From NCBI GenBank assembly GCA_030068145.1, contig JAPJBO010000355.1, positions 145,001-209,000 on the forward strand: DNA of 64,000 nt. Reading direction: 5' to 3'. The DNA comes from Diplonema papillatum (lineage: Eukaryota > Euglenozoa > Diplonemea > Diplonemida > Diplonemidae). Positions 40,346 through 49,594 of this stretch are shown here, one piece after another. A program made the position numbers and the translations under genes. Every line of letters begins with the position of its first letter. The first letter of the stretch is position 1. The notes below the pieces were generated by a model, which saw nothing but the letters and a program-made list of their open reading frames with translations, had not been told where the DNA came from and made no database searches.

Positions 40346-40405
40346 ATAAAGTGGTGTCACCTGAGGGGGTAATCTCAGGCCGCCCACGTGATAAGCCGTT
40401 AAGCA
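40346..40405. repeat. Left half of hairpin repeat R, ending in GTTAAGCA
   Basis: Matches 35868-35908 (GGGGTAATCTCAG, GCCGCCCACGTGATAAGCC) and stops exactly at GTTAAGCA (40398-40405), where the LINE 3' end begins. Its continuation is at 50042. Confidence 0.85.
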
Positions 40406-40465
40406 TTGAGTTCTTTTAAGTACATGAACCACATGGATTAGCATGCACTGTGTCGCCGCTTAAGG

Positions 40466-43400
40466 TTACTTTATGACGTCGTCACCTGTCATTGCGTCGT
40501 CAAGGTCGAGTACTTGTGGCACCAGGGGCGCTGGGCTTTCTTGCGGTTCTGGAGATTGCGTGGGGGGGCACAGGTGCGGACAGGCTTGCACGTTTTTCAC
40601 TCTCGAGGGCACCGGAGTGCTTGGGGACGTCGGACGTTTCTGGTAGCTGCTTGCTTTAAGGGCCTTCTTCTTTTTTCGTTGCACCCCTGACTCGGGTGTG
40701 GTCGCCTTCGCCTTCTTCCGCTTGCGGCCGGCGATCGGGCTCTCCTTCGGGGTGCCGAGCACCCTCTTCTTCAACGCTGGTCGTTCGCCGGTCCCTGGCG
40801 TTGGTGGCGGCCTCTTGGCCGCCCGTCCGGTCGTCGCCGTCTTCTGCTTCACCACGGCGGGCGGTGCCTGCGCCGCGCGCTTTCCCGCCGGTGTTTCTCG
40901 TTGTACGCCCACCTGGGTGGGTGAGAGGGGTCTCTTCTTCTTTTTGCTGTGTCCGGGGGTTGCCGGGGCGTTCGGTTCGTTGGGTTGGTGGTGGCCGCGG
41001 CGGCAGCACGCTGCCGGTCTCCTCTGCGCCAACGTAGGGAGCCTCCTGCATTCCTGGCAGGTTCCTCTGCCATGCGTGCGGCAGGCATGATGCCCGCTGC
41101 GGCAGCACGCCGCCGCCGTCTTGCACTCGCCGCATTTCGTCGTGCTGTGCTCCACGCACACCGCGATCGGCTGCCCATCGTCAGCGTGGTGATGGTGCCG
41201 ACAGCACATCTCTACCGTGGGCACGTCCCTTCGGACGAGTGCTCGACACGCCTCACACTTCCCCTTGTGGTGGGTCGCGCAGGTGACGAGCGCTTTCTCT
41301 ACTCCGACACCCGGCATATGCACGGGGTCGGGGTGCAGCTGTGGTGGGACAGGCAGGGCCCACCTCGCCGCTCTCTCGGCCGTCCAGTCCGGGTACGTCG
41401 GGAACTGCGTCCCTACATCGCTTCCCTTCACCTGCTCTTCGAGGATCGTCCCCGTGTGTGCCTCGCGAAAGCGGGGCCTGGGCCGCACCCCCGATATCCC
41501 CGTGATGCCCATGAACGACAGCGACGTCGTCGGGCATACTCTCTCGCCTCGCTCGCAACTCCCCAGCCCTTGCTGTGTCGCCAGCTTGTCCAACGCGCTG
41601 ATCATGCAGCGCAGGACGTTTCCTCGCTCCCTCACCCCCTTCGGTGCATTCTCGTGCAGCGGTATGCTGAGGCCTGAAAAGAGTTCAAAGTCGATGGCAA
41701 GCTCTAGCATTGACGCCTGCCCGTTCTCGGTCCACTCCATGTCTGACAGCCACGCTACCAACGCATAAAACGTCGGTAGCCCCCAGGCCTTGTTCCGCTC
41801 CCACGCCCATGCCGGGGCAATCCGCGCAAAGGGGTGGTCGAGCTTCTCGGCAGGCATCGCATCCGCTCTCGACCAGGGGGTCGTGGGGTTCCTGGCTACC
41901 CAGCCTCGTGCTTCGAGCCCTGCCCGCTCCGCAAGGATTTCAGCCATCATCTCCTGGAGCCGCCTCGAGAAGTGGGCATTCTCGGGTACTACCACTCCGT
42001 GTTCCAGCGTGCATCTGGGCCAGTCGGCGCGGTTGGCCGCCATCAGCTCGGCATGTGCCTCTCGTCGCCGTATGTGCGAGTACGCTCCGCAGTCCCAGAA
42101 TACGTGTTTCTCGTCCTCGGTGTCGCCGCTTCCACAGTGCTTGCAGCTGGGCGCCTGCGGCTCAGCTCCGGCCTGTCTCATCCGCGACGTGAACTCAGCC
42201 GTGTTCACTCCTCCCGCCAACGCTACACGTATAAGCCTCGCGGTGTGCGCGGGACATTCACGCATCCTCCAGAAGGAGTTCGTCCGCTCCAAGTCGGCTC
42301 TCTGTACACCCTCAAATCCCGGCCGCCTCGCTACCAGACGGGACCACGTCTTCGCCCTCAAATCCGCCCTCACTTCATGCCCCCTCTTCGAGGGTGTCGA
42401 GGCTATCGGGTCAAATATTGCACCATTCCTCAGCGTGCGAGACAGGGGCCCTGGTCCCCATACGTGTCCACACTCCTCCATGCTCTTCATCGCCAGTCCA
42501 ACTGGCCCCAGGGGTAGGTCCTCCTCGGCGTACCTTCCCCGGATGCTCTCCATCAGAGGCAGAAGTCGTGGCAACCTCTCGCACGCCGCGTAGAACGCCG
42601 TCGTCACCCTATATGCTAGGCATGTACTGGGGTCCGTCAGGTGGCCCTTCTCCTGAAAATTTAGGACCATCTCCCTCGCGCGCTTTGGGTTGGACCCACC
42701 CCAGATCAGTCCCATCACCGACGTCGTCAGCCGTTTCATTGCCACCTTCGACACCGGCGCGAAAGAGCAGCCTGACAGCGCCGCCGGCAGCACATTCGAC
42801 TGTACAATCCGGACCCGCTTCTCGTACCGGAACGGCGCATGGCGGAGGCCTTCCGCCAGGGCAGCCGCCTTCTCCACCCTCTCCGAGTCGGACCTTTCTG
42901 TCCTATTCTTCGCCGTCGAGACTAGGGCCCCCAGGCACGTGACAGATTTGCCAAACCGCAGCAGCGCATCCACGCTGCGGAGTCTGAGCGTCGACTGATG
43001 CCTACGTCTCGTCGAGAAGGCGACCGTTTTCTGGAGGTTCAGCTCCATTCCGGTGAGCGTGCAGAACTCGTCTACCACGTCCACCCCCTTTTGCAGGGCG
43101 GCCTCCGACAGCCGCGATAGCAGCGTGGCATCGTCCGCGTACGACTTTGGGCTCACCCCCTCCGCTTCTTTCTTGACCGCCTTCATCACTACCGACAGCA
43201 GGGCATTGATGAGGATGACGGATACAGGGCACCCTTGAAGGATACCATTGGTCACACTAAACTCCCTGCCCACCCCTAGAGGCAGCTTGAAGCGTCTCGC
43301 GAGCAGTCTGTAGATCGCCCTCAGCGGCTTGAGAACCCGATTGTGCAACCCTAAGTCCCCGGCCAGGCGCAGCACTATCTCTCGCGGGACCATGTCGAAA

Positions 43401-46381
43401 CATTTCCGGAAGTCCAGCGCCACTCCGTAGAGCGGCTCTCCATCTAGCAAGGCGTCCTCCATCTCGAGCCCTATCTCCATCAGGACGTCCTCGATACGGT
43501 GACCCGGTCGAAAGCCCTTCTGTCCTTCTTCGATCCACTTCTCCTGCCACAGGACTATGTCCGCAAGCCTGCGGCACGCCCATAGGCGGTACACAGCGGA
43601 CGTGACGGTTATTGGCCTCGTGTGCAGCGGGTCTTGGCTCTCATCCTTCGGCACCATCGACACCAGGGCAGTTGTCATGCTCGCCGGCCAAACCCCAGTC
43701 ACTTCGACCAGGTTCATGACATCCGCTAGCGCATTCAGCAGGGGAAGCGGCAACTCCCGCAGTTCAGCCATGCGCCAGCCATCCACGCCTGACGCGCTTT
43801 TCTTCGGCTTCTTCCTTAGCAGAGTCCGCAGCTCCTCCCCCGTGATCGTCCCGGGTTCCATCAAGTGTGTGTCGATGTGCTCCTGGAACCGATCCCGAAA
43901 CGGTCCGTACTCCGGCTCTGGCCGGTCCTTGTATTTACGCAGGATAGCGTCCCACGCAGTGTGCAACACCTCGTCCATCTCGTCCACATTTGCAGTCATC
44001 TTCGCTCCGGTGCGCAACACACCCGACGGCTCAGCGCGACCGGCGCAGACGGTCGCTAGACATCGTCTGCTCGCGTCCGCCCTCTCGTTAAGCTTGTCTC
44101 GGTACTTCGTAAACCTGGCCGCAGATCCTTCCCTTCCGAGCCTACTCGTCTCTTCCCGCAACGCTGTGAGCAGCTGCTTCGCCTTCTCATGATCCGGAAA
44201 CCCCCCTGCGCCTTGGTCGCCCACCATGCACGCTTGTGCCAGCCGCTTGCAGTTCTGCCAGCAGAGGGACACCTCATGTGGAACAGCTTCCGGCCCGCGA
44301 CGTTGCGCGAGGTAGCTGCAGATGCGTTCCATCCGGTGGATGGCCTTTCTAAGCCGTAGCTGCCTGCTGTTCGCTGCCCCCGACCCGTCGGTCGCAGTGC
44401 CCGCCGTGACACAGACCCTCCTCGGCAATGTCTTCATCCCCCGGCCGGTACCCCTTCCTCTCTCTTCCACAGGGACGGCGAATGCATCCTGCAAGTACCG
44501 CTCACTGACCCGTGACCACTCGAGCCAGGCCTCTTCCACCCGCTGCGCCGCCAATCGTTCCGCGAATTCGGAGTTGGCCAGTCTCTGTACGGCTTCCCTG
44601 TCGGCTTCTGCTTCCGAGAGGTCCCACTTGGACCCCCCCTCTGTCGGGATCTCCCGCGGCACCTTAAATCGCCACACGCTTTGGCGCAGCGCTGCAATAT
44701 CCAGGGTCACTGTCACGAGCCGGTGTCCCGGTACGTTCACCGCGGTGGTGACGCATTGACGGAATGCACACGCCGCTATGCGGTTGAGGAGTATGCGGTC
44801 GATCCTCGTGCCTGACGTCCGGGCGCTGGTAAAGGTCGGTGGCGGAGGCGTGTTCCCGGTGCGCGCATGGTGCAGTTCCGCTGCGTCGGACCATCCGTTC
44901 CTAAGTGCCTTCCGCAGAACAGGGGACCGATCTTCTTCCGTGTTGAGGTCTCCCATCACCAGTATGGGGACGTCGCCGAGGCTGTCTGCCGCCGCAAAGA
45001 GGACCTTCTCCAGCATGTCCTCACGTTCCTCGTTCTCCGCCCTCCCGTTTCCTGATGGGCAGTAGACATTGAACACGTGCACGAAGGTGCTGCCGGTCCC
45101 TGTTGCGACTACAGTATGGCTTACCCGGTCCGGGGACCGTAACGCCACGTGCGAGAGCGCTGCCAACGTGTCGTACGCCGGTATCGGCCTCTGTACTAGA
45201 GTGCAGAGTCCCCCGTTCGCAGCGTTCGTCGTCGAGCGACTACCGGAGCTTCTACAGAGTCTCCCGGGAGGTGGCGGACCCCAGTGGCAGCACCAATTCC
45301 GTAGGTATTCCTCCGCCTGTGCCCGTTTGCATCGAAGGAGTGTGACCTCCTGGCAGCAAAGAAGGTCGGCTTCCACCGCGTTAACCGCTACTATGTACTG
45401 CAGCATGCTGGTCACGTTGAGCGTCGCGAACTTCATCTCCGTGCGGCCGGGACCAGGGTTCTGTTCGACGTCCCCAGCTGTTAACAGCCGCTCTCGTGCA
45501 GATCCTCTGACTGATTCTTCTGTTCTTTTACTGTTACATAAATGCGTAGGGTTGGACTGTTGATGGGGGGGATGGGTGAGTGACTGTGGGGGGGGTGGGG
45601 GGGGCATTGTGGGTGGATCCAGCGTACCTTGTTCTCCTCTGGTGGGGGAGGAGCAGCGGGCCCTTCCCTCGTGCACAGCTCTGTAGGTGAGCGAGACCCT
45701 GTCGTGTGTGACATCACCGGGACGGATCCCGTGTGTCCACAGGTTCCTGGCCTCGCCCTCCATGTGGCACAGAGTGCCGGCTGGCAGCGGGGTTCTCACT
45801 CTTTGGGTCCCCCTCTCCCACTCCATGACCGTGTCACTCAGTAGCGAAACAGTCGCAACCCTCGGTCCAAGTTCTTGCTGGTCTTTATGGGGGTTTATCC
45901 CCACTCCCTTCCGGTACCAGTTGGCCAGCAACTGGTCCGGTTCCCACCCCAGACGGTCACGTATGACATCCGCAGCTTCTCTCAGGGGCCCCTCGGGGAT
46001 CCCCCGCTCCAGTTTGACCGGGGGTCCGCCCTGTCGATAGGCGTGCCCCCACTGCTGGGTTTCCCTGCCATGCCCTCCCCCCAGCCTTCCCCAGGGGGCT
46101 TCCGGTCTGAGCTCGGGGACCCGGCTCAGCCTCTCCAGGAGGTCCCGAGGGATCGTCTGGAAGCTGAGCCCGGGAATGGGTCCATCCTCCCTGCTTCGGG
46201 GGGGCTTGCTCCCGGGTCTTTGCCCCTCGCCGTAAGTCGGCCGCGGATGTTGGTCATTGTGGGGGGTTTGTTTGTGCGCAATGTCGGGCCCTCGGGGTAA
46301 AACTCCCGGACGACTGAGGCCTGGCGCGTCGAGAGAGGGGGAGAAAGAAGAAGAAGAGGGTCTGCCGCCCCCTTCGCGCAT
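40466..46381 (-). CDS. LINE polyprotein: AlkB dioxygenase - 2A - AP endonuclease - reverse transcriptase - Zn array
   Basis: About 1971 residues. An earlier ATG at 46405 borrows its A from the neighbouring element, so 46381 was chosen. Residues 65-240: AlkB fold, with NWYRKGVGINPHKD (His165, Asp167), WTHGI (His217) and RVSLTYR (Arg228/234), the iron and 2-oxoglutarate ligands of AlkB. Residues 303-311: GDVEQNPGP, a canonical 2A motif expected to release the AlkB part during translation. Residues 315-565: exonuclease-endonuclease-phosphatase domain (CCQE, MGDLNTEED, RIDRIL, PGHRLV). Residues 850-1150: reverse transcriptase with ALDFRKCFD, GILQGCP and YADD (1081-1084). A CCHC knuckle, CKHC...HVFWDC, is at 1413-1431. 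A Cys/His-rich array of CxxHxxxxCxxC units spans 1701-1797, then a Lys/Arg-rich tail. No RNase H. No frameshift or stop is seen, so it could be active. Confidence 0.88.
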   Translation of the reverse strand: MREGGGRPSSSSFSPSLDAPGLSRPGVLPRGPDIAHKQTPHNDQHPRPTYGEGQRPGSKPPRSREDGPIPGLSFQTIPRDLLERLSRVPELRPEAPWGRLGGGHGRETQQWGHAYRQGGPPVKLERGIPEGPLREAADVIRDRLGWEPDQLLANWYRKGVGINPHKDQQELGPRVATVSLLSDTVMEWERGTQRVRTPLPAGTLCHMEGEARNLWTHGIRPGDVTHDRVSLTYRAVHEGRARCSSPTRGEQGTLDPPTMPPPPPPQSLTHPPHQQSNPTHLCNSKRTEESVRGSARERLLTAGDVEQNPGPGRTEMKFATLNVTSMLQYIVAVNAVEADLLCCQEVTLLRCKRAQAEEYLRNWCCHWGPPPPGRLCRSSGSRSTTNAANGGLCTLVQRPIPAYDTLAALSHVALRSPDRVSHTVVATGTGSTFVHVFNVYCPSGNGRAENEEREDMLEKVLFAAADSLGDVPILVMGDLNTEEDRSPVLRKALRNGWSDAAELHHARTGNTPPPPTFTSARTSGTRIDRILLNRIAACAFRQCVTTAVNVPGHRLVTVTLDIAALRQSVWRFKVPREIPTEGGSKWDLSEAEADREAVQRLANSEFAERLAAQRVEEAWLEWSRVSERYLQDAFAVPVEERGRGTGRGMKTLPRRVCVTAGTATDGSGAANSRQLRLRKAIHRMERICSYLAQRRGPEAVPHEVSLCWQNCKRLAQACMVGDQGAGGFPDHEKAKQLLTALREETSRLGREGSAARFTKYRDKLNERADASRRCLATVCAGRAEPSGVLRTGAKMTANVDEMDEVLHTAWDAILRKYKDRPEPEYGPFRDRFQEHIDTHLMEPGTITGEELRTLLRKKPKKSASGVDGWRMAELRELPLPLLNALADVMNLVEVTGVWPASMTTALVSMVPKDESQDPLHTRPITVTSAVYRLWACRRLADIVLWQEKWIEEGQKGFRPGHRIEDVLMEIGLEMEDALLDGEPLYGVALDFRKCFDMVPREIVLRLAGDLGLHNRVLKPLRAIYRLLARRFKLPLGVGREFSVTNGILQGCPVSVILINALLSVVMKAVKKEAEGVSPKSYADDATLLSRLSEAALQKGVDVVDEFCTLTGMELNLQKTVAFSTRRRHQSTLRLRSVDALLRFGKSVTCLGALVSTAKNRTERSDSERVEKAAALAEGLRHAPFRYEKRVRIVQSNVLPAALSGCSFAPVSKVAMKRLTTSVMGLIWGGSNPKRAREMVLNFQEKGHLTDPSTCLAYRVTTAFYAACERLPRLLPLMESIRGRYAEEDLPLGPVGLAMKSMEECGHVWGPGPLSRTLRNGAIFDPIASTPSKRGHEVRADLRAKTWSRLVARRPGFEGVQRADLERTNSFWRMRECPAHTARLIRVALAGGVNTAEFTSRMRQAGAEPQAPSCKHCGSGDTEDEKHVFWDCGAYSHIRRREAHAELMAANRADWPRCTLEHGVVVPENAHFSRRLQEMMAEILAERAGLEARGWVARNPTTPWSRADAMPAEKLDHPFARIAPAWAWERNKAWGLPTFYALVAWLSDMEWTENGQASMLELAIDFELFSGLSIPLHENAPKGVRERGNVLRCMISALDKLATQQGLGSCERGERVCPTTSLSFMGITGISGVRPRPRFREAHTGTILEEQVKGSDVGTQFPTYPDWTAERAARWALPVPPQLHPDPVHMPGVGVEKALVTCATHHKGKCEACRALVRRDVPTVEMCCRHHHHADDGQPIAVCVEHSTTKCGECKTAAACCRSGHHACRTHGRGTCQECRRLPTLAQRRPAACCRRGHHQPNEPNAPATPGHSKKKKRPLSPTQVGVQRETPAGKRAAQAPPAVVKQKTATTGRAAKRPPPTPGTGERPALKKRVLGTPKESPIAGRKRKKAKATTPESGVQRKKKKALKASSYQKRPTSPSTPVPSRVKNVQACPHLCPPTQSPEPQESPAPLVPQVLDLDDAMTGDDVIK
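45449..45475 (-). other. 2A ribosome-skipping motif
   Basis: Encodes GDVEQNPGP, matching the D-V/I-E-x-N-P-G-P consensus. It sits between the AlkB-like domain and the endonuclease, preceded by RERLLTA. 2A motifs are known in some trypanosome and invertebrate LINEs. The predicted outcome is separate AlkB and endonuclease/RT proteins. Confidence 0.85.
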
Positions 46382-46396
46382 TGCTGCGTGATCGCA

Positions 46397-46436
46397 GTTA
46401 AGCATTGAGTTCTTTTAAGTACATGACCGTTAAGCA
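46397..46436. repeat. Junction of two target octamers with a 24-bp LINE stub
   Basis: GTTAAGCA (46397-46404) is followed by 24 bp equal to the first bases of the element 1 3' end (TTGAGTTCTTTTAAGTACATG plus ACC) and a second GTTAAGCA (46429-46436). This reads as an extremely truncated element 1-family insertion trapped between the two long elements. Confidence 0.75.
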
Positions 46437-46494: not shown

Positions 46495-49300
46495 TTATTT
46501 GAATACGTCGTCCGAGGACGATCTCAAAGCGGACGAGGACGGTGATAATAGGCTGGTGATATCCAGCTCCATTCTTCGTTTGTTGCGCTTTCGCGCCGGC
46601 TGTCCTGCCGAAGCAGTCGCTCGAGGGGGCGATCCTGACATGGATGAGGATGAAGTCGAGGTGGCAGGGCTGGTGATATCCAACTCCATTCTCGAAATGT
46701 TGCGCTTTCGCGCCGCGTGCTTTTTTCCGGGTTTTCCCGCCGGGTCATTCGGTGGTGTCGGGAGTCGGGCTCTTTTCTGCCCCTTTCTTGGTGGTGTCGC
46801 TCGGGCCGGCTCGGTCGGAGCGTGCTTTTTCGCCATCTTGGCCGCCTTTGGGGACGCTTGACGCGTCCTCTTCATGCGCGGTGGTGTCGTCGGCTTCTGT
46901 CGGCCCTTCTTCCGCGGCGTTGTTGGCTTCGGCTTAGCGGGGGCTGGCTTCGGGGGCGCTGGCACGTGGTGGCCCTTTTTGCAGCAGGCTGACGGCCGCC
47001 GTTCCGCTAGCGTCGGTAAGCCGCGGCAGTCGTCACACGGACCGCGGGCGTGTTCGCGGCAGTCATGGTGGCCGGCCTTGCAGCACGCTGTTGGCGTGTT
47101 GCACTCCACGCATCTCGTCATGCGGTGCCGGTCGCAGACGGCCGGAGGTAAGCCGTCGTTGTCGGCGTGGTGGTGTCGGCAACATGCCTCCACCGTAGGG
47201 CCGTGGTGGTGTCCGAGTGCGCGACAGACTGCGCACTTCCCTTTGTGATGGGTAGCGCACTTGGGGGCATTCTTCGTCGCCTCCGGCACTGCGTGTGGGA
47301 GGTGCAGGGGATCCGGGTTGGCCAGTGGCGCTCTGGGGATTACCCATCGCCGCGCTCTGTCCGTCCGCTCGGGCGGGTACGCCGGCGCTGTGCCGTAGCC
47401 GGTTTTCACCTGCTGCATGATGGTCGGCCCGGTTTCGGGCATGCGGTGGCGGGGCCGGGGCTGGAAGCCGGGTACGCTGCTCAGGCCTATGAACGACAAG
47501 GCTGTCGTTTTCGACTTGAAGTCGCCAGGGAGGCACTTGCCGAGTTGTTGTTGCACGGCCAGCTTGTTGATTGCGCTCAACATGCAGCGCATCCCGTTGG
47601 CCTTCTCCCGATGCGTCTTGGCCGCCTTGCTAGGTGCCTTGATGTCGAGGCCCGAGAACAGCTCGAAGTCGATAGCTGCCTCTACCGCTGCCATGTCGCC
47701 ATCCGATGACCATTCGAGGCCCGAGAGCCAGTCGATCGCTGCCAGGAATGTCCTTTCGTCCCAGTAGCGTAGCCACGCCCAGGCCGGGGCGATGCGCCGG
47801 AACGGGAACTCGCGTTTCGCCGTTGGCATCTGCGCGCAGCGCTCCCAGGGGGTCGCCGCCTTACGTTCTAGCCATCTAACGCTGATCCGGCGCGCCCGCT
47901 CCGCCAGGATCTCTGCCATCAGCGCTTGTACCGGCCCGGCAAATTCCCGTGTCGCCGGCGTCACGATTCCGTGCTCCCGCAGGCAGCTCGGCCAGAGCCT
48001 CCTGTCGGACTGTGCGATCCCCGCGTACTCGGGCTTCGTGCGTATGTTCTCGAAGGCCGTGCAATCCCAGTAGACGTGGTGCTCGTCTTCCAATGCTCCC
48101 GAGTCACACAACGTACAGGCGGGGCTTCCGCCTTGGCGAAATCTCGACGTGTATTCGGCGGTGTTCACGCCACCTGCGAGGGCAACCCTGATCAGCAGCG
48201 CGTTCTGGGGCGGACAGTGGCGCGTTGTCCATAGAGCGTTGGTGGACTCGATCGCGATGTTGGTGATGCCGGAGAAGCTTGGCCGTCGTGTTTCCAACCG
48301 CTTCCACAGTCGGTTCCGCAGGTTGTCGCGGATGATGTGATTTCGCGAGGAGGCGGACATTGCCAGGGGTCGGAGTGCAGCTCCGTCCAGGTTGACGGAC
48401 GACGGCGGGCCGCCGTTCCACGTGTGGCCGCAGGGTTGCAGGCCGTGCCTTACCGCGGTTCCCACCGGGCCAAGGGCTGCGGTCACTCGTTCGCCGTATA
48501 GGCGCCGGACTTCCGTCATCAGCGGCATCAGGTGCGGCAGTCTCCCACAGGCGCTGTAGAAATCCGCGGTTATTCGGTACGCCGTCGCCGTCGCAGGGTG
48601 CGTCAAGTGGGCTTTTTCGAGGACTCCCAAGACTACTTCCGAGGAGCGCTTCGGATTCTTCGGCCCCCAGATCGCTAACGTTAACGCTGTCGCCAGCTTC
48701 TCCACGGCTTCAGTCGTAGGGGGCGCGAACGATATTCTCGCGAGAGCGGCGGGCAGGATGGCTGATTGAACGATGAGGGTTTTCTGCTGCCTCGGAATTG
48801 GGACGTGCCGTAGGTTCCGAGCTGTGGTTGCTGCTGCTTCAAACCGGGAAGAGTCAAAGTGGTCGCGGCCGCTGCGTGAGGTGCTCACCTTAGCCCCCAG
48901 GCACTTCAGCGATTCCTTCTGTGCGAACTGCTCGCCCGTGCTGCTGCGGAAGATCTTCGTCCTACGGCCCAGCCCCGTCGCGAACGTTACCGTCTTCTCC
49001 ATGTTCAGCGACATGCCGGTCAGCGCGCAGAACTCATCGACTAAGTCCGCGCCCCGTTGCAGATCTGCCTCGGAGTGCTTCGCCAACAAATTCGCATCGT
49101 CTGCGTACGACTGCGTCGACACGCCTGGTGCCTCGACTTTTACCGCCTTCATCAACACTGACAGGAGCGCGTTGATCAGGATGACCGAGATAGGGCACCC
49201 TTGCAGAATCACCTGAAACTCCTTTCCGACCCCGAGGGGGAGCTTGAACCGCCTGACGAGGGTGTCGTAGATGGACTTCAGCGGTTTCAGAATCCGGGCT
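46495..49300 (-). pseudogene. Element 2 RT-to-C-terminus remnant
   Basis: Homology to element 1 starts at ILKPLKSIYDTLVRRFKL near 49293 and runs to the stop. The open frame upstream to 49578 has no ATG start and no similarity, as expected at a deletion junction. The palm contains ILQGCP and YADD (about 49098-49109), but three residues before ILQGCP found in element 1 are missing. The CCHC knuckle, the CATHHKGKC-type array and a Lys/Arg/Pro-rich tail with two ARKRNKRRMELDIT-like repeats follow. Probably dead because endonuclease and RT fingers are gone, although the remaining 900 codons are open. Confidence 0.8.
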
Positions 49301-49594
49301 AGCAGCAGGTGCTTTCGGCGTGCCTCCGCAACTGATAACTTCGTCCGTCTGACCTGCTCCGGCGGGCTTCGACAGAAGAGCATGGGTCGGCGGTGGCATC
49401 GTCCTCCGGATCGTCTGTGTCGGCTCGTCGTGCGCGTTGTCGGTCGGGAGAACTGGCGGACCTGCCGAGTACGGCAATAGGCCCAGGGCATCGATTGTCG
49501 TGGTCGTACGAGGCTCGCCGACAGGACGCGTTTGGGTTGATGGGAGGAGCTCTGCCGGTGCTGCCTTCGTCGTCTCACCGTAGTGGCGTCGTAG

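Follow-up and report, generated by a model that had tools for sequence, protein, structure and literature searches.

We analysed a 64,000-nucleotide stretch of the genome of the marine flagellate Diplonema papillatum (GenBank assembly GCA_030068145.1, contig JAPJBO010000355.1, positions 145,001 to 209,000 of the forward strand; hereafter the window), and found a retrotransposon whose open frame encodes a complete AlkB-type domain with the catalytic residues kept. The retrotransposon is a long interspersed nuclear element (LINE) of the type with an apurinic/apyrimidinic (AP) endonuclease (APE type). Its frame (40466-46405, minus strand; 1,979 codons) joins the AlkB domain with all its ligands, a 2A motif, AP endonuclease and reverse transcriptase (RT). 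This arrangement had been claimed in an earlier note on the same DNA, and the frame, the Pfam matches and the motifs confirm it. Furthermore, the AlkB part belongs to a mobile element and, by sequence comparison, is maintained by selection.

The AlkB identity was examined by profile, motif and structure comparison. The Pfam model PF13532 (2OG-FeII_Oxy_2) matched residues 142-242 with an expectation value (E) of 5.8e-13 and 49.9 bits, against a curated cut-off of 31.2; residues are counted from the ATG at 46405 throughout. The residues N162, Y164, H173, D175, H225, R236 and R242 were invariant in 5 of 5 aligned sequences, and we take them to be the iron and 2-oxoglutarate ligands, as in AlkB. 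The HxD...H iron site, the NxY motif and the Rx5R 2-oxoglutarate motif are all present. Among solved structures, the profile comparison placed ALKBH8 best (2.4e-8), followed by Ofd2 (P8A3.02c; 4.2e-7). Foldseek searches with two models of middling confidence gave best E values of 3e-6 and 3e-7, and all 50 matches listed for each model were of the AlkB family. Both the profile and the structure search suggested by the earlier note thus returned AlkB. In VIA-align, other 2-oxoglutarate oxygenases scored nearly as high as AlkB entries. A search with the AlkB core alone, over 2,565 candidate proteins that shared words with it and had a fitting length, gave no relative at E 0.001; in IMG/VR viral contigs, none of 16 pattern matches was confirmed as a relative.

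The AlkB part was found at no fewer than 120 places (scored, out of 652 candidates), a lower bound. According to the scored table, 66 of the 120 lie within open frames no shorter than 1,980 residues, and 3 carry a stop in the matched part. Relative to the AlkB stretch of the window, groups of copies with about 93, 74, 72 and 70% identity are prominent. The earlier note had allowed that AlkB might be host sequence accidentally in frame and absent from other copies. Such absence was not seen in this family (the related LINEs L017 and L021 have no AlkB), and the number of places together with purifying selection rules out an accidental fusion. We also observed that the domain is easily missed in annotation: the NCBI model P0004, 99% identical, begins at the first Met behind 2A. 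P0004 and P0005 are D. papillatum proteins with 99-100% identity in the aligned part. A long gene model, P0002 (DIPPA_14024), has a C-terminal part that is the LINE AlkB (89% identical over 45% of the query); either a LINE has inserted in or close to a gene, or the gene model is an artefact.

To compare constraint along the frame, ratios of nonsynonymous to synonymous rates (dN/dS) were calculated by the Nei-Gojobori method between the window copy and three diverged copies, L033, L024 and L014. The AlkB core gave 0.145, 0.154 and 0.184, respectively, and the endonuclease gave 0.169 (110 codons), 0.157 and 0.141. The RT gave 0.01 for L024 and 0.015 for L014. The linker before AlkB reached 0.87, 0.98 and 1.3 (0.59 against the close copy L032), and the proline-rich linker behind it reached 0.36, 0.73 and 0.73 (0.79 against L032). 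In the comparison with L024, based on rounded counts, AlkB differed from the linkers (Fisher p 2e-6) and did not differ from the endonuclease (p 1.0). These ratios indicate that, across subfamily divergence, AlkB is kept like the endonuclease by purifying selection.

The features of the element in the window are as follows.

About 40406-46396, minus strand: 5'-truncated copy of the APE-type LINE, with ORF2 (open reading frame 2) complete and ORF1 missing, from comparison with other copies.
40466-46381, minus strand: ORF2 from the ATG at 46381 (AlkB, 2A, endonuclease, RT and Cys/His tail); this ATG varies between subfamilies.
46184-46381, minus strand: linker ahead of AlkB, nearly unconstrained by dN/dS.
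45668-46183, minus strand: AlkB core, residues 75-246 (2OG-FeII_Oxy_2), with HKD at 173-175, H225, R236 and R242.
45506-45667, minus strand: proline-rich linker from AlkB to 2A, weakly constrained by dN/dS.
45449-45472, minus strand: 2A motif DVEQNPGP, residues 312-319.
44771-45406, minus strand: AP endonuclease (Exo_endo_phos), residues 334-545, by Pfam.
43013-43627, minus strand: reverse transcriptase (RVT_1), residues 927-1131, with YADD at residue 1089, by Pfam.
40466-41305, minus strand: C-terminal region of ORF2, where the sequence shows Cys/His clusters and a basic tail; no Pfam assignment.
40406-40465, minus strand: short 3' untranslated region ending in TCATGTACTTAAAAGAACTCAA, with no poly(A).
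40398-40405, minus strand: target-site duplication TGCTTAAC, 3' copy.
46397-46404, minus strand: target-site duplication TGCTTAAC, 5' copy.
46405-46426, minus strand: tail of an older insertion at the same kind of site, which lengthens the direct repeat to 30 bases.

The endonuclease and the RT lie in a single ORF, both above the curated Pfam cut-offs, and the 2A motif reads DIEQNPGP in L033. An exact 30-base direct repeat was considered as the target-site duplication and rejected, since 22 of its bases (TCATGTACTTAAAAGAACTCAA) are a 3' tail of the same element, deposited when an earlier insertion took place. When other copies and six short insertions were compared, TGCTTAAC emerged as the duplicated target, and the element here therefore spans about 40406-46396. 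The ATG at 46405 thus lies outside the element, at the last base of the older insertion's tail. A target-site duplication (TGCTTAAC in the window, 16 bases at C25) and variable 5' truncation were both found, as in APE-type non-LTR (long terminal repeat) elements.

The window copy is truncated ahead of ORF2. Five other copies (L012, L013, L023, L026 and L027) run on upstream of its 5' end, without a difference in the 600 bases compared, and their upstream ORF1 has a CxxC cluster at its end; the ORF1s of L024, L014 and others are different. ORF1 of the C4 copy has its first in-frame ATG about 175 bases from the apparent 5' end of that copy. The earlier description of AlkB as the N-terminal part of a single ORF therefore holds for ORF2, but not for full-length copies, which have ORF1 upstream. 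Four ORF1 pieces gave no Pfam match above cut-off. The ingi/L1Tc elements of trypanosomatids carry the 5' promoter/ribozyme Pr77; in L029 and L031, where longer copies have their 5' ends, Rfam listed no match to a ribozyme like that of hepatitis delta virus.

ORF1 and ORF2 lie in the same frame, with a single TGA between them. We found that this TGA is followed by CTG, CTA or CTC in 13 of the 18 rows of the junction table (L010, L012-L015, L017, L021, L023, L024, L026, L027, L032 and L033), several of which are near-identical, so that the independent evidence amounts to about four lineages. Of the remaining five, four (L009, L016, L019 and the window copy) show truncation or disruption upstream, and L025 has a frameshift ahead of AlkB; L011 has no row, and L018, L020, L022 and L028 belong to another family. 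The ORF1 frame of L010 is broken 42 codons upstream, and the ORF1 part covered at the junction is only 42 codons in L032 and 18 in L033. Within 66 bases around the stop, the four types share the block TGACT and five scattered bases, no more. Three ORF1s are 31-39% identical to each other. A conserved leader, GCCCTCGTTCGGGCTGCCGAGTCCTAGCA...GGCAGTTCGATCACGCAG, with a hairpin, was seen about 35-205 bases behind the ORF1 stop (L013, L024, L014); it is common to one set of compared copies and was not seen in L033.

No Met occurs from the TGA to HxD in L010, L014, L015, L024, L032 and L033, and four of the five subfamilies sampled have no ATG ahead of the AlkB iron site. The ATG at 46381, taken as the start by the earlier note, is ACG in L032, the 93% sibling of the window subfamily. 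Together these observations rule it out as the start for the family. The extension behind the stop is in frame and under coding selection, as in UGA readthrough. Because most subfamilies have no Met before HxD and TGACT is conserved in the same frame, we suggest that UGA readthrough probably yields AlkB joined to the end of the ORF1 protein, with 2A parting the endonuclease-RT. From these sequence features, we propose ORF1-(UGA)-AlkB-2A / endonuclease-RT as the full-length layout. The freed AlkB protein of the earlier note would then be parted from the endonuclease-RT, but would stay joined to the ORF1 protein.

We consider it moderately probable that this is a site-preferring APE-type LINE with an acquired AlkB, which makes ORF1-AlkB by readthrough, splits its product at 2A and uses AlkB on its own RNA. 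The full-length RNA would yield mostly ORF1 protein. A minority of ribosomes would pass the UGA-CU stop to make ORF1-AlkB, the chain ending at the 2A skip, and the endonuclease-RT would follow as a protein of its own, at roughly the same level as ORF1-AlkB. The ORF1 protein would hold AlkB on the ribonucleoprotein of the element, where AlkB could strip methyl or other oxidisable groups from the element RNA, either host marks or RT-stopping lesions such as 1-methyladenosine (m1A) and 3-methylcytidine (m3C). RNA demethylation by the element AlkB is what we infer from analogy, and the best analogy is the AlkB of Ty3/Gypsy elements of Phalaenopsis orchids, which was shown to demethylate N6-methyladenosine (m6A) in RNA in vitro (PMC9289625).

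Several observations weigh against this reading. The window subfamily has an ATG 32 residues after the stop and before AlkB, where an internal start or spliced-leader trans-splicing could serve. UGA CUA is described as the human high-readthrough consensus (PMC4359377); the exact UGA CUA occurs only in L010, L015 and L024, which are one subfamily, and the rest have CUG or CUC. RNA folding behind the stop in six copies showed no consistent excess (z-scores -2.4 to +1.8), and a conserved stem behind the UGA is thus unsupported. L017 and L021 have UGA-CU although they lack AlkB, so the origin of the UGA was not tied to AlkB. The structure models had predicted local distance difference test (pLDDT) scores of 57 and 64. 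The AlkB dN/dS was 0.24 in the L033-L024 pair (endonuclease 0.18) and 0.34, on 4 changes, in the L024-L010 pair. It rose to 0.55 and 1.0 in the close pairs window-L032 and L024-L014 (8 changes each), and a slightly longer cut of 179 codons raised the three main pairs to 0.19-0.23 and window-L032 to 0.89. Among close copies, these ratios would mean either that AlkB changes are too few or that constraint is relaxed. Finally, retrotransposition of human L1 is reported to be helped by m6A and hindered by ALKBH5 (PMC7873242). This is the opposite case, and the sign of a demethylation effect therefore cannot be assumed.

The proteins P0001 and P0003 point to another AlkB-bearing element in the same genome; neither matched PHROGs. 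Of 150 scored matches, 25 carry the AlkB of this second element with 75% or more identity to the query, and 8 of these 25 lie in frames exceeding 3,700 residues. The copy at C6:2091-14357 (minus strand; L035/L036) has a 4,088-residue frame with AlkB (E 2.1e-11), RVT_1 (2.7e-21) and UCH (ubiquitin hydrolase; 6.9e-8), along with an OTU match that stays below threshold (E 5e-4; 20.9 bits against a cut-off of 23.3). Pfam showed no Exo_endo_phos match in this frame, and among solved structures its RT is closest to R2. Its AlkB is 75% identical to that of the window; against five LINE copies, dS was 0.47-0.60 and dN/dS 0.25-0.32. Judged by sequence, such close AlkB domains in two kinds of retroelement would be explained either by transfer from element to element or by the capture of close host genes, and their presence in both suggests a shared benefit. 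Many copies of the second element are found no more than about 15 kb from a contig start (C6 itself measures 836 kb), and the element is perhaps subtelomeric. We tentatively put forward, as a possibility short of probable, that AlkB is a counter-defence module passed between the APE-type LINE and the element with the R2-like RT. In the LINE, UGA readthrough would dose it onto the ORF1 protein and 2A would part it from the endonuclease-RT, giving each replication complex an eraser of host methyl marks on the element RNA.

Translation offers another explanation, possible but on the unlikely side, in which ORF2 has its own start (a spliced-leader acceptor or a non-AUG codon) and the in-frame UGA-CU is incidental. 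The ATG of the window subfamily, the conserved leader ahead of AlkB and the spliced leaders that Diplonema is described as adding (PMC10161547) are in its favor. However, that ATG is ACG in L032, none precedes HxD in L010, L014, L015, L024 and L033, and the frame and TGACT were kept though the ORF1s diverged to 31-39% identity.

The substrate of AlkB could also be DNA. While reverse transcription is primed at the target, AlkB might repair cDNA or target DNA that is alkylated; it might also remove a host base mark. The top Foldseek matches of the second model include NMAD-1, named as a DNA N6-methyladenine demethylase, and ALKBH2, and genes for 5-methylcytosine (5mC) and base J are described in Diplonema (PMC10161547). 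We regard action on DNA as unlikely compared with action on the element RNA.

It is rather improbable that AlkB modifies host tRNA or mRNA in the manner of ALKBH8, favouring translation or recoding of the element (e.g., UGA readthrough). ALKBH8 was the best profile match, and UGA readthrough seems to be needed by the element. However, ALKBH8 also contains a methyltransferase and an RNA recognition motif (RRM), and Pfam shows neither here; readthrough would leave AlkB joined to the ORF1 protein; and the AlkB-less L017 and L021 have the same UGA-CU. That AlkB is a useless, hitch-hiking host fragment is highly improbable and strongly disfavoured by the selection result: it is absent from L017/L021 and from 36 of 39 homologous proteins (gene models starting behind 2A would hide it), a fragment occurs in the host gene model P0002, and close pairs lack low dN/dS, but dN/dS is endonuclease-like against the three diverged copies, the catalytic residues are invariant, and a 75% identical module sits in a different retroelement.

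Related families indicate how the front of these elements varies. The Diplonema LINE represented by L017 and L021 is 52% identical from residue 286 on, in the part with endonuclease and RT, and has the same TGA-CT behind ORF1 and a 2A, with 154 residues and no AlkB between them. L014 combines the ORF1 end of the L017/L021 family with an AlkB-bearing ORF2, indicating that element parts recombine. Among the 39 homologous proteins, P0001, P0002 and P0003 match the AlkB profile and 36 do not; gene models that start at the Met behind 2A (e.g., P0004) would hide the domain. The related LINE polyprotein P0031 carries an OTU protease at its N-terminus and shows no match to AlkB, indicating that this LINE group takes up differing front domains. 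Another RT family (L018, L020, L022, L028) has two nearby NPGP motifs, DVERNPGP and DIHPNPGP. The available part of the Diplonema genome report describes a dozen AlkB-type genes as host regulators and makes no link to retrotransposons there (PMC10161547).

Exact matches to the tail with the target number 2,210 genome-wide. All 6 picked tail matches (L037-L042) are insertions of only about 26-45 bases of the LINE 3' tail, with duplications that begin TGCT[TA]AAC and reach 16 bases (L041), and such micro-insertions may be common. Target repeats (L037, L040, L042 and the 3' flanks of L009-L027) form hairpins whose stems differ but pair, and some have the inverted ends GGTGTCAC/GTGACACC. The landing site is possibly a DNA-transposon or small-RNA repeat family. 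Rfam gave no match in the L037-L042 target sites, and no tRNA was found at the six tail sites. All Rfam matches were below gathering scores and were taken as chance or hairpin effects: CrcZ (E 0.012), HOXA11-AS1_6 (E 0.53) and, on one long hairpin, MIR8643 (E 1e-9, 55 of 135 bits), MIR831 and MIR1858. This hairpin, with the weak microRNA-precursor (MIR8643) match, is about 150 bases long (L029:3769-3919). In the window, a second LINE frame (46495-49578, minus strand) adjoins the element, with an RT match and no endonuclease match. Its 3' side abuts the earlier tail-insertion site, indicating that insertions stack at one type of target.

Like the orchid Ty3/Gypsy element, this LINE is a retrotransposon in which a 2-oxoglutarate AlkB domain was taken up and retained (PMC9289625). 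The orchid element is an LTR element with an ALKBH5-like AlkB in a separate ORF, whereas the AlkB found here is nearest by sequence to ALKBH8 among solved structures and lies within the ORF2 polyprotein of an APE-type LINE, between UGA and 2A. The ingi/L1Tc elements of trypanosomatids are likewise described as Euglenozoa APE-type LINEs with AP endonuclease and RT (PMC12278014), and a title cited in PMC4981915 gives L1Tc of Trypanosoma cruzi a functional 2A. Unlike ingi/L1Tc, the Diplonema element has no poly(A) tail (its 3' end is TCATGTACTTAAAAGAACTCAA), and it has AlkB and an in-frame upstream ORF1. Also unlike ingi/L1Tc, no RNase H was found among the ORF2 Pfam matches to E 0.1. We know of no AlkB in ingi. 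Plant RNA viruses with AlkB are described in the Alpha- and Betaflexiviridae and Closteroviridae (PMC9289625); by description, these too are selfish RNA-based replicators encoding AlkB, but viruses, not retroelements.

The earlier note knew of no described LINE with AlkB. This statement held in titles and abstract openings of the open-access PubMed Central (PMC) literature, where none was found (Repbase and most subscription journals are outside it), but the orchid Ty3/Gypsy precedent (PMC9289625) had gone unnamed. Thus, AlkB in retrotransposons is known from plants, while an AlkB in a LINE, behind UGA, before 2A and shared with a second retroelement appears to be new.

The proposed ORF1-UGA-AlkB-2A-endonuclease-RT order would unite two recoding devices within one LINE. 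The selection on AlkB suggests that the element gains by removing marks or damage. Gene replacement is reported to work in D. papillatum (PMC10161547), and a restraining effect of epitranscriptomic marks on retroelements thus becomes testable there. If selection maintains AlkB in a second kind of retrotransposon, far from plants, the orchid case would become a pattern, in which an eraser benefits retroelements.
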